Shown: positions 18,065 to 38,059 of the stretch, one piece after another
How positions within the stretch are numbered: position 1 is the stretch's first letter
Layout: every line of letters begins with the position of its first letter
Translations under genes and position numbers: made by a program
The notes under the pieces: generated by a model
Told to the model about the DNA's origin: nothing
Seen by the model: the letters and a program-made list of their open reading frames with translations, nothing else
Databases searched by the model: none
NCBI GenBank assembly: GCA_016794525.1
Contig: JAEUJY010000145.1
Location: 1-38,059, forward strand
Source: Myxococcales bacterium
GTDB lineage: Bacteria > Myxococcota_A > Polyangia > Haliangiales > Haliangiaceae
Reading direction: 5' to 3'
Length of the DNA: 38,059 bases

Positions 18065-18275
18065 CACCCCGCGCTGAACCCTCCGGCCGGTGGCCACGCC
18101 GCCCCCGCGCTGAACGCTCCGGGCCCGCCCCCGCGCTGAACGCCGGACCATCGCCGGTGGCCACGCCCACCCCGCGCTGAACGCGTGGCCGGTGGCAACG
18201 CCCAGCCCACGCTGAACGCTCCGGGCCGTCGCCGGTGGCCACGCCGCCCCACGCTGAACCCTCCGGGCCGTTTCA
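18065..18275. repeat. GC-rich imperfect repeat array beyond rpoD
   Basis: Six copies of a CCCCGCGCTGAACSCTCCGG-like unit with partial GTCGCCGGTGGCCACGCC flanks, at irregular spacings of about 26 to 42 bp (GCTGAAC at 18073, 18109, 18135, 18176, 18211 and 18253). It fills the convergent gap between the DUF2156 gene and rpoD. On the rpoD side it joins a GACGTGGGGCCCCC-ACCTGAAACG core (18269-18293) and then the rpoD hairpin. No CRISPR-like regular spacers are present, and no gene is supported in 18052-18341. Confidence 0.75.
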
Positions 18276-18300
18276 GGTGGGGGGCCCCACGTCTTGTGGG

Positions 18301-18327
18301 GGGAGGGCCTTTGCGAAAGGCCCTCCC
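18301..18327 (-). terminator. Hairpin after rpoD
   Basis: A perfect 12-bp stem GGGAGGGCCTTT / AAAGGCCCTCCC with a 3-nt loop, 14 bp past the rpoD stop. It has no following T tract. It probably terminates or protects the rpoD transcript and may also serve the convergent DUF2156 gene. Its CTTTCG-AAAG centre is shared with the hairpins at 26986 and 37929. Confidence 0.8.
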
Positions 18328-18341
18328 AAGGAACACGGATC

Positions 18342-20498
<2,157 letters not shown>

Positions 20499-26035: not shown

Positions 26036-26977
26036 ATGCGCCGTCTCGCGACTCTCGGTTTCGCTCCCCTGTTCGCTCTCGTCGCCTGCGGCGACGATGG
26101 CGGCTCGACCACCATCGACGCGCCCATGCTGGAGAACCCGGGGTTCCCGGTCCCGACCGCCGTGACCAAGGCCAACTCGGACTCGACGGGCTCGTGGGTG
26201 GAGATCGGTGACGCCGATTGGACTTGCCTCAACACGCCGTCGGCTGACCAGCCGTCGACGCAGACGATCGCGCTGACCGGCAAGATCCGCGACTTCCAGA
26301 CCAGCAGCAACTCCATCGGCAACGCCACCGTCACCGCCTTCGCCGGCTTCGACACGACCGGCAACCTGGTCCAGGCCACGTCGAGCAACGTCGCGCAGAC
26401 GCGCGGCGACTACTCGATGATGGTGCCGGTGCTGCCGTCGGGGCAGACCCGCGTCGGGTTCAAGATCGAGGCCGCCGGCTGGCTCAAGACCTACCTGCTC
26501 AACCAGTACCTCACGCCGAGCAACCCGACCCAGAACCTCAACATCAGCGCGGTGTCGGAGTCCACGGCCAACGCGCTGCCGGCGTTCGTCGGTGTCACGC
26601 GCGATCCCGCGGACGGCGTGCTGGCCGGCGCGATGCGCGATTGCCAGGGGCGCGAGGTCTCGAACGCGGTGGCGACGGTCAGCTCGACGATGGGCACCGT
26701 GGCCCACCTCCCGGGCGCGGAGACGTTCTACTTCTCGGCCGCCTCGACCAGCCTCCCGGTGCGTCACAGCCAGGCGCCGACGACCAACAAGGACGGCCTG
26801 TTCGTCGTGCTGGGGCTGCCGCCGCAGACCGCGCCCGCGTACATCCAGGTGTGGGGCTTCCCGACCGCCGCCGATCTGGCGATGGGCGCCGCGGGCCTCA
26901 AGCTGCTGTCCGAGATGCCGTCGCCGGTCGAGGCCAACGCGGTCATCACCGGATCGTTCGAGCCGAAGCGGCAGTGA
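26036..26977 (+). CDS. Large hypothetical lipoprotein
   Basis: A 313-residue protein with lipobox ALVAC (Cys18) followed by GDDGGS, an Asp-rich start typical of surface lipoproteins here. The mature part is beta-rich, with Thr/Ser/Asn-rich strands and two apparent Ig-like or carboxypeptidase-regulatory-like halves: IALTGKIRDFQTSSNSIGNA and ATVTAFAGFDTTGN near 72-110, and a second region around MRDCQGREVSNAVATVSSTM. Two mature Cys may pair. It is probably an outer-membrane or surface protein of unknown role. GGAGG 5 nt before the ATG decides the start. A hairpin and repeat array follow the stop. Confidence 0.75.
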   Translation: MRRLATLGFAPLFALVACGDDGGSTTIDAPMLENPGFPVPTAVTKANSDSTGSWVEIGDADWTCLNTPSADQPSTQTIALTGKIRDFQTSSNSIGNATVTAFAGFDTTGNLVQATSSNVAQTRGDYSMMVPVLPSGQTRVGFKIEAAGWLKTYLLNQYLTPSNPTQNLNISAVSESTANALPAFVGVTRDPADGVLAGAMRDCQGREVSNAVATVSSTMGTVAHLPGAETFYFSAASTSLPVRHSQAPTTNKDGLFVVLGLPPQTAPAYIQVWGFPTAADLAMGAAGLKLLSEMPSPVEANAVITGSFEPKRQ

Positions 26978-26985
26978 TACAGAGA

Positions 26986-27004
26986 GGGTCTTTCGAAAAG
27001 ACCC
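26986..27004 (+). terminator. Hairpin after the 26036 lipoprotein
   Basis: An 8-bp perfect stem GGGTCTTT / AAAGACCC with loop CGA, 8 bp past the stop codon and without a T tract. Near-identical to the hairpin after tonB and related to that after rpoD. Confidence 0.75.
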
Positions 27005-27015
27005 AGGTGGTGGCA

Positions 27016-27043
27016 GGTGGCGCGCCAGGCGTCATGCGCCACC
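27016..27043. other. Second inverted repeat between hairpin and repeat array
   Basis: GGTGGCGC (27016-27023) and GCGCCACC (27036-27043) can form an 8-bp stem with a 12-nt loop. It lies between the terminator-like hairpin and the 53-bp array in a gap (26978-27284) without any supported gene. Confidence 0.5.
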
Positions 27044-27056
27044 ACGGTGTGGCGGG

Positions 27057-27216
27057 GACGTCCCCCCACCCGAAACGCGAGAGCGTGGTGCGCGGGTCGG
27101 GTGGATGACGTGGGGCCCCCACCCGAAACGCGAGCGCGTGCTGCGCGGGTCGGGTGGATGCCGTGGGGCCCCCACCCGAAACGCGAGCGCGTGCTGCGCG
27201 GGTCGGGCGGATGACG
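27057..27216. repeat. 53-bp tandem repeat array, about three copies
   Basis: ACCCGAAACGCGAG starts at 27068, 27121 and 27174, an exact 53-bp period. Each unit contains CCACCCGA and TCGGGTGG as inverted ends and CGCG-rich middle sequence, so each can fold into a long hairpin. Units are joined by GACGTGGGGCCCCC, and the first joint is 3 nt shorter. The core joint plus ACCYGAAACG also occurs once, in gene-sense orientation, beyond rpoD (18269-18293). No protein is credible here. Confidence 0.9.
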
Positions 27217-27272
27217 CGGCGAAAGCCTCGTGACGGCGACGCCGGGTGGCCGAAAGCCCCCGGCGTTTCTGT

Positions 27273-27278
27273 TATGGT
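27273..27278 (+). promoter_or_regulatory. -10 hexamer TATGGT, leaderless spacing
   Basis: TATGGT, preceded by TGT, is followed by exactly 6 nt and the ATG at 27285. No -35 element is apparent. Confidence 0.5.
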
Positions 27279-37164: not shown

Positions 37165-37926
37165 ATGTTCGAGAACTACGCGGAATCAAAGCGATCGAAG
37201 GGCATGACCTGGGCGATGGGTGTGCTCATCGTCGTGGTCGCCGGCCACGCAGCCGCCGGGACCGCGCTGGTCGTGAAGTCGTTCTGGGACATCAAGAAGC
37301 TGGACGTGCCCGGGTCCGGCGTGGACCTGGCCATCGCGCCGCCGCCCCCGCCGCCGCCCCCGCTCAAGGGCGGCAAGAAGCTCGAGACGCAGAAGAAGCC
37401 GGTCGTCAAGAAGGTCAAGCCGACCGAGCCGGTCCAGCCGACCATCGCCAAGCCGGAGGACAAGCCGGCCGAGGCCAGCGACGGCGCCGAGGGGCCGCCC
37501 GACGGCGATCCGGATGGTGACGAGAACGGTGATCCGAACGGCGTCGCCGGTGGCGTGGCCACGGGTGGCCCGCCGCCCCCGCCGCCCCCGCCGCCCCCGC
37601 CGCCCCCGCCGCAGCCCCCGCAGATCGTGCCGCCGACCGCGTTCGATCAGCAGCGCGTGTCGGGCGACAAGAACATCTTCCCGGACGACGTGACCAAGAC
37701 CGAGATCAGCCGCTCGGGCAAGACCCAGCTGATCATCCCGGTGAAGGTCTGCGTCAGCCGCGGCGGCGCGGTCGACGGCGTCACCGTGCTCAAGTCGTCG
37801 GGCTTCGCCGCCTACGACGAGAAGCTGAAGCGCGAGATCCGCCGCTGGCGATACAACCCGTTCATGATCAACGGGTCGCCGGCGCCGGTGTGTTCGATCG
37901 TCCAGTTCATGTACCGGCAGAAATAA
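37165..37926 (+). CDS. TonB-family energy-transducer protein
   Basis: A 253-residue protein with one inner-membrane helix (15-38, TWAMGVLIVVVAGHAAAGTA), two polyproline blocks (about 59-66 and 136-152) spanning the periplasm with a Lys/Pro and an acidic Gly/Asp segment between, and a TonB C-terminal domain (about 170-253). The latter includes VCVSRGGAVDGVTVLKSSGF, AAYDEKLKREIRRWRYNPF and PVCSIVQFMY, with C196 and C243 able to pair. It should pass proton-motive energy to outer-membrane partners through ExbB/ExbD-like proteins, which would be expected just beyond the contig end. GAGGAG precedes the ATG. Confidence 0.9.
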   Translation: MFENYAESKRSKGMTWAMGVLIVVVAGHAAAGTALVVKSFWDIKKLDVPGSGVDLAIAPPPPPPPPLKGGKKLETQKKPVVKKVKPTEPVQPTIAKPEDKPAEASDGAEGPPDGDPDGDENGDPNGVAGGVATGGPPPPPPPPPPPPPPQPPQIVPPTAFDQQRVSGDKNIFPDDVTKTEISRSGKTQLIIPVKVCVSRGGAVDGVTVLKSSGFAAYDEKLKREIRRWRYNPFMINGSPAPVCSIVQFMYRQK

Positions 37927-37928
37927 GA

Positions 37929-37953
37929 GGAGGGTCTTTCGAAAAGACCCTCC
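37929..37953 (+). terminator. Hairpin after the TonB gene
   Basis: A perfect 11-bp stem GGAGGGTCTTT / AAAGACCCTCC with loop CGA, 2 bp past the stop, without a T tract. It is the third member of the hairpin family seen after rpoD and the 26036 lipoprotein. Confidence 0.8.
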
Positions 37954-38059
37954 CCCCGCCAACCCCGGGGCCCCCCCCCCCACCCGCCCCCACCCCCCAC
38001 CCCACCCCAAGGGGGGCCCCCCCCCCCCCCCGCCCCCCCCCCCGCCCCCCCACCCCCCC
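37954..38059. other. Poly-C low-quality contig end
   Basis: The last 106 bases are almost only C with a few A and G runs, unlike any other stretch of the window. It probably reflects a sequencing or assembly failure at a GC-rich repeat rather than true sequence. It follows the hairpin exactly where the two other copies of the element carry GGGGCCCCC-containing repeats. Confidence 0.8.

Follow-up and report, generated by a model that had tools for sequence, protein, structure and literature searches.

A dispersed two-hairpin element found mostly in one orientation shortly behind stop codons in myxobacteria

The window analysed here, a stretch of 38,059 nucleotides, is the entire contig C83 of the 177-contig, 9.8-Mb assembly of genome G000 (Kofleriaceae, Myxococcota in this analysis). 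In a preliminary description of this DNA, hairpins had been assigned to the 3' ends of rpoD, a lipoprotein gene and tonB. All three were present where they had been placed, at 14, 8 and 2 nt past the respective stop codons. The features of these loci, in which HP1 and HP2 denote the first and the second hairpin of an element, are as follows.

18342..20498, minus strand: rpoD, the gene bearing the element at its 3' end (gene call)
18301..18327, minus strand: HP1 of the rpoD element (GGGAGGGCCTTT-CGC-AAAGGCCCTCCC), 14 nt past the rpoD stop (pattern; fold; match to model R1 at 18259-18335, 72.4 bits)
18286..18300, minus strand: HP2 of the rpoD element (CCCAC-AAGAC-GTGGG), abutting HP1 (fold; covariation)
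18269..18285, minus strand: C-rich linker and AACG tail of the rpoD element (GCCCCCCACCTGAAACG) (core search; alignment of copies)
18083..18268, minus strand: GC-rich tandem array downstream of the rpoD element, with TTCAGCG-type units and a period of ~67 (tandem-repeat scan)
26986..27004, plus strand: HP1 of the lipoprotein-gene element (GGGTCTTT-CGA-AAAGACCC), 8 nt past the stop at 26975-26977 (pattern)
27005..27062, plus strand: structured insert of the lipoprotein long form (AGGTGG...GGGGACGT), replacing HP2 (fold of 26975-27090, z = -5.4)
27063..27216, plus strand: lipoprotein tandem array, 2.9 copies of a 53-bp unit holding the linker/box CCCCCACCCGAAACG (repeat and box matches)
27240..27273, plus strand: conventional intrinsic terminator (CGCCGGG...CCCGGCG TTTCTGTT) downstream of the lipoprotein element (terminator scan)
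37929..37953, plus strand: HP1 of the tonB element (GGAGGGTCTTT-CGA-AAAGACCCTCC), 2 nt past the stop (pattern; R1 match at 37920-37986, 48.8 bits)

The pattern CTTTCGNAAAG, with at most one mismatch, matched three times in the window versus 0.29 expected, and the core GTGGGGCCCCCACCYGAAACG also matched three times versus none in 100 shuffles. The core sequence that had been described was present, but its letters needed correction: the copy at 27160 reads GCCGTGGGG rather than GACGTGGGG, and the copy at rpoD carries one additional C. Hairpin and core had furthermore been taken for separate parts. Both exist, but the core consists of the 3' arm of HP2 plus the linker, and hairpin and core are therefore a single unit. 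In the variant present at the lipoprotein gene, HP1 and the first linker/box are ~58 nt apart, with other structured sequence filling the gap. A structured insert of 60-80 nt between hairpins and box (AGGTGG..GGCAGG...GGGGACGTC) was seen at 27005-27062 of the window and at two other loci (L183:5575-5660 and L205:8200-8350). The tonB element runs into degenerate poly-C at the contig end (window 37954-38059). At its other end the window contains 36.5 copies of the hexamer CGGCTC (108-327).

The anatomy of the element was derived from the flanks of the first 60 genome-wide matches and from an alignment of 41 copies. The stop codon is followed by a short AT-rich spacer (mode 6 nt), HP1, the abutting HP2, a C-rich linker and an (A/G)ACG tail, with a repeat array downstream. 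The element is ~70-80 nt long and its HP1 stem comprises ~10 bp. In type I elements HP1 reads GAGGG(T/G)CTTT-CG(A/C)-AAAG(A/C)CCCTC and is directly abutted by an HP2 such as CCCCAC-AAGAC-GTGGGG or CCCCGGC-ATNC-GCCGGGG, among others, after which the linker CCCCCACCC and the tail GAAACG follow. Some copies have a doubled HP1, and in nearly all copies a C-rich tract comes after HP1 and HP2. Further subfamilies have other stems on the same plan, for instance GGAGGTGCG-TCGC-CGCACCTCC followed by CTCGGCGGGG-CCAGGT-CCCCGCCGAG, CCTCCCACC and AGGACG. The covariance model R2 was built from the type II/III subfamilies only and recovered most type I elements, which places type I and type II/III in one structural group. 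Since a loose descriptor of tandem hairpins proved of no use in GC-rich coding DNA, a strict one took its place.

In type II/III copies (e.g. L303 and L310) the linker behind HP2 tends to repeat the 3' arm of HP1 (GGAAGG with CCTTCC, GAGAGG with CCTCTC), which suggests an alternative pairing or a third strand. Complementarity of the linker to the 5' arm of HP1 was above that of shuffles in type II (1 of 500 was equally high), and not in type I or in other families.

The position of the copies relative to genes was studied in 838 kb of G000 and 360 kb of its congener G025, with genes called by a simple codon-model caller. No copy was located inside a gene in the sampled DNA of either carrier. 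The orientation was that of the immediately upstream gene in 80 of 82 copies in G000 and in all 30 in G025, together 110 of 112, and neighbouring elements within 500 nt of each other were head-to-tail in 16 of 16 pairs. First copies started at most 18 nt past the stop codon in 61 of 75 cases in G000 (14.5 expected) and in 16 of 21 in G025 (1.2 expected); for both carriers this amounts to 77 of 96 versus ~16 if copies were spread uniformly over the intergenic region. The spacing was measured in 90 stop-proximal copies, most of them from G000 and G025 and four from the genome G205 of another family; 27 had exactly 6 nt and 45 had 6-8 nt. The spacer contained 55% A+T, versus 22% after stops generally. 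Some copies overlap the stop codon or begin more than 20 nt away from it.

Fifty of the 66 element-bearing genes in the G000 sample were scanned with Pfam. The hosts included the ribosomal proteins S1, S2, S21, L11, L31 and L33, as well as EF-Tu (tuf), GroES, the omega subunit of RNA polymerase (rpoZ), SSB, cytochrome oxidase subunit III and an NrfD protein; rpoD is a further host gene. Six ribosomal proteins among the 50 compare with ~0.3 expected, assuming 55 ribosomal genes among ~8,700. A codon-bias proxy was higher in element-bearing genes (p = 2e-6, reference genes excluded) and TAA stops were commoner at these genes (12/87 versus 30/898). Copies were also found within the gene pairs groES-groEL, rplK-rplA, rpsB-tsf and rpmG-rpmB. 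The element is thus found preferentially behind highly expressed genes, ribosomal ones among them, and often inside operons, an enrichment that holds relative to neighbouring genes because the sampled regions were picked for holding type I elements.

The spacing of 6-8 nt with its AT-rich spacer could be that of a device acting on translation termination, in which HP1 would press on the terminating ribosome and lower output through stalling and rescue by tmRNA. There is a known parallel in E. coli, where REPs at most 15 nt from the stop codon are reported to affect translation in this way (PMC12306157). Such lowering of output would be unexpected behind rpsA, rpsB, rplK, tuf and groES, and the copies that overlap the stop or start more than 20 nt away do not fit it either. 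We consider this explanation unlikely.

Comparison with relatives gave information on the age of the copies. The groES-groEL gap measures ~30-45 bp without a hairpin in five congeners, versus ~180 bp (G000) and ~350 bp (G025) with elements, and the rplK-rplA gap is 87 and 106 bp in two congeners versus 255 and 369 bp in the carriers. Because the congeners have compact empty sites at these two positions, the copies must have been gained recently. Among orthologue pairs the element was common to G000 and G025 at groES, rplK, rpoZ and two other genes, shared cases that were favoured by the way the G025 regions were chosen. G025 is without the element at rpoD, tuf and one further gene, and since this close relative lacks it there, the element is dispensable at these three genes. 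A conventional terminator is present at tuf in both genomes, without the element in G025 and behind it in G000. The copies are thus recent insertions that lie between the stop codon and whatever comes next, terminator or gene, and they undergo turnover. That the element might be an ancestral rpoD terminator was rejected, as it is missing at rpoD in the congeners seen. At L077 in G025 a different tandem repeat (CTGCACCCGGTGCGTGGCGCGCGGGGATCGTCGTA...) directly follows rpoD in the place of the element.

It had been considered in the preliminary description that the structure is associated with a terminator. Like an intrinsic terminator, the element is a GC-rich stem-loop in sense orientation shortly after the stop codon. 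It differs in having a C-rich tract instead of the U-tract, in forming near-identical dispersed families and in its position, which may be ahead of a conventional terminator or between two cistrons of an operon. A canonical terminator was rejected on the missing U-tract, on the copies between groES and groEL, rplK and rplA, and rpsB and tsf, and on the conventional terminators located further downstream of the element at tuf, rpsA and the lipoprotein gene of the window. A non-canonical, U-tract-less terminator or attenuator that sets cistron ratios in operons would agree with the strong hairpins seen immediately behind genes, U-tract terminators being few in this genus, and with copies between cistrons whose products could be needed in differing amounts. 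The C-rich tract again stands where a U-tract would be expected, groEL, rplA, tsf and rpmB would be silent under full termination unless they have promoters of their own, and the three genes just mentioned already have a terminator downstream. We regard this possibility as very doubtful.

Genome-wide, the HP1 pattern GGGNCTTTCGNAAAGNCCC gave 116 matches and the core GGGGCCCCCACCCNAAACG 79, and neither matched when read backwards. The core is therefore neither restricted to the sites in the window nor randomly oriented, and the earlier impression of an element dispersed behind unrelated genes, at their 3' ends and in a single orientation, was borne out; its appearance is that of a repeat that spreads and that forms a structure at the mRNA 3' end. 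At least 147 matches to R1 were obtained in G000 and at least 124 in G025, and at least 144 and 134, respectively, to R2, with 150 candidates at most scored in each search; R1 and R2 matches may overlap. Because type I scores low with R2 and type II/III occurs at ~1 copy per 60-65 kb in the sampled G000 DNA, ~300 copies per genome is a rough estimate. Contigs often begin or end in or near elements or arrays (G000 C42:1-86 and C156:1-55; the ends of C58, C66 and C70 in G025; the poly-C of the window). With assembly breaks at these positions, the copy numbers are likely underestimated. In arrays of G025 (e.g. L299, L305 and L317) an extra hairpin (such as CGCGCCCCTCCGGGGCGCG) seems to be part of each unit, as does a T-rich tract that precedes the following HP1.

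Two genomes in the family are carriers, namely G000 and G025. In 28 other genomes of the family R1 found no match and R2 a single isolated one, in the congener G028. This copy (L294:1501-1587, contig C144) is type II/III-like, has a long HP1 loop and is not directly behind a called gene; it could have arrived by transfer or lie on a mis-binned contig. Among the 9-mers of G028 no equivalent post-stop repeat was found. When R2 was applied to 282 sampled genomes of the phylum it also matched five genomes in two other families of the class, which gave 49, 54, 21, 8 and 1 matches when more candidates were scored; in one of these families, R2 matches were present in 7 of the 10 genomes. The stems of these elements differ again, and many have a T-rich tract before HP1 or are arranged in tandem arrays. 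Of the eight G205 elements inspected, four had TGA 6-7 nt before HP1. Copies behind stops were also seen in G177 and G153, with looser orientation and stop-proximity and less reliable gene calls. Elements of the same plan in looser form, several with the 6-nt spacing, thus occur in other families of the Polyangia.

Double changes were observed at 15 of 17 pairs in alignment A2 and at 17 of 20 in A4, counts that lean towards the model since both alignments were fitted to one. In both, the covariation score was higher than in each of 500 shuffles, and slid controls were far lower. Both hairpins covary across subfamilies having different stems. Among HP1 variants with a single hit, G-U pairs versus mismatches numbered 6 versus 17 (A2) and 0 versus 14 (A4). 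As G-U pairs were not favoured over mismatches, RNA-specific purifying selection is not visible among the copies. The lack of a G-U preference is what a copying process at the DNA level would give.

This last result is in line with a selfish DNA repeat of the REP or MITE type, a single-stranded DNA hairpin copied by some enzyme, without function, whose copies survive only at gene ends. The many perfect stems with nearly no G-U pairs, the patchy and lineage-restricted presence, the tandem arrays and the differences in presence between close relatives are all compatible with it. A simple survival filter would leave unexplained the one-sided orientation of 110 of 112 copies, the sharp 6-nt spacing and its recurrence in another family, and the enrichment at highly expressed core genes; furthermore, the carrier G025 has no Y1 transposase. 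A functionless repeat of this kind is rather unlikely in our judgement.

The element is a short palindromic, high-copy, extragenic repeat and in this respect falls within the definition of a REP. It resembles REPs and BIMEs in being a set of many short dispersed extragenic hairpins, mostly downstream of genes, patchy between species and divided into several sequence families. It differs in having two abutting hairpins per unit, in being nearly always in sense orientation, mostly anchored to stops and enriched at highly expressed core genes, and in neighbours that are only head-to-tail, whereas REP neighbours often are opposite (dimers). For ~11% of the REPs predicted in E. coli, a stop codon is no more than 15 nt away (PMC12306157, PMC3733652).

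GTAG was found at the foot of the stem in none of the leaders listed. Type II/III shows an invariant GACG, the reverse complement of CGTC, at a distance of about ten nt from HP2, and type I has AACG at this position; REP families with CGTC have been reported without a dedicated transposase. Mobilisation of the element by a REP-type Y1 transposase was not supported. PF01797 (Y1) had no matches in G025, 17 in G000 and was present in the five non-carrier congeners, and no element was found beside the two Y1 loci of G000 that were searched. Mobilisation by Y1/RAYT was rejected on these grounds, the absence of Y1 bearing on REPs of the GTAG type only.

With the attC sites of integrons the element shares a folded, oriented structure directly behind genes. 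It differs in its hosts, which are housekeeping genes in ordinary operons and not cassettes, and neither GTTRRRY nor RYYYAAC boxes were seen in the element consensus of the alignments inspected. A phage or plasmid origin was rejected, as the HP1 pattern was missing from viral contigs and the phage and plasmid collections gave no match. No family of Rfam release 15 matched the element; up to E = 1 the matches were a nearby real tRNA and chance-level scores below gathering. No description of the element was found in open-access papers with the terms used. In kind it can be placed with the dispersed palindromic 3' elements.

A DNA repeat without function is not expected to track the direction and position of stop codons or to prefer highly expressed genes, which indicates an effect in the mRNA. 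By a simple scan, 3-5% of the element-free intergenic regions hold a U-tract terminator. Strong twin hairpins placed shortly past the stop, also inside operons, in a genus where such terminators appear rare, would be consistent with a 3' boundary by which the upstream cistron is protected or insulated. We therefore favour, tentatively, a dispersed two-hairpin family that acts in cis in the mRNA as the 3' boundary of the upstream cistron, a reading that we hold to be plausible rather than probable. HP1 would be at or just inside the mRNA entry of the ribosome reading the stop codon and would refold as the ribosome leaves. The HP1-HP2 pair could then block 3'-to-5' exonucleases and possibly also the onward movement of ribosomes. 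The cistron would thereby obtain a stable and defined 3' end in a genus that seems to have few U-tract terminators. The family would spread by a copying process, and selection would retain mainly those copies that directly follow the stop codon of a highly expressed gene. A wider proposal, to be made with greater reserve, is that the elements form a cis-acting RNA class of their own, anchored to the stop by an unstructured spacer of ~6 nt and occurring in several Polyangia families with unrelated stems and the same anatomy. This class might act on the terminating ribosome or on the 3' ends of highly expressed mRNAs, and might spread via a process dependent on or filtered by translation stops.

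If the boundary function is correct, the element would provide a recognizable gene-end signal for these myxobacteria, in which U-tract terminators appear rare. What is known of the biology of stop-proximal repeats would be broadened by a further phylum and by a design of two hairpins in a single orientation. The recent copies and the compact empty sites at groES-groEL and rplK-rplA would make the origin and the role of dispersed 3' hairpins testable.
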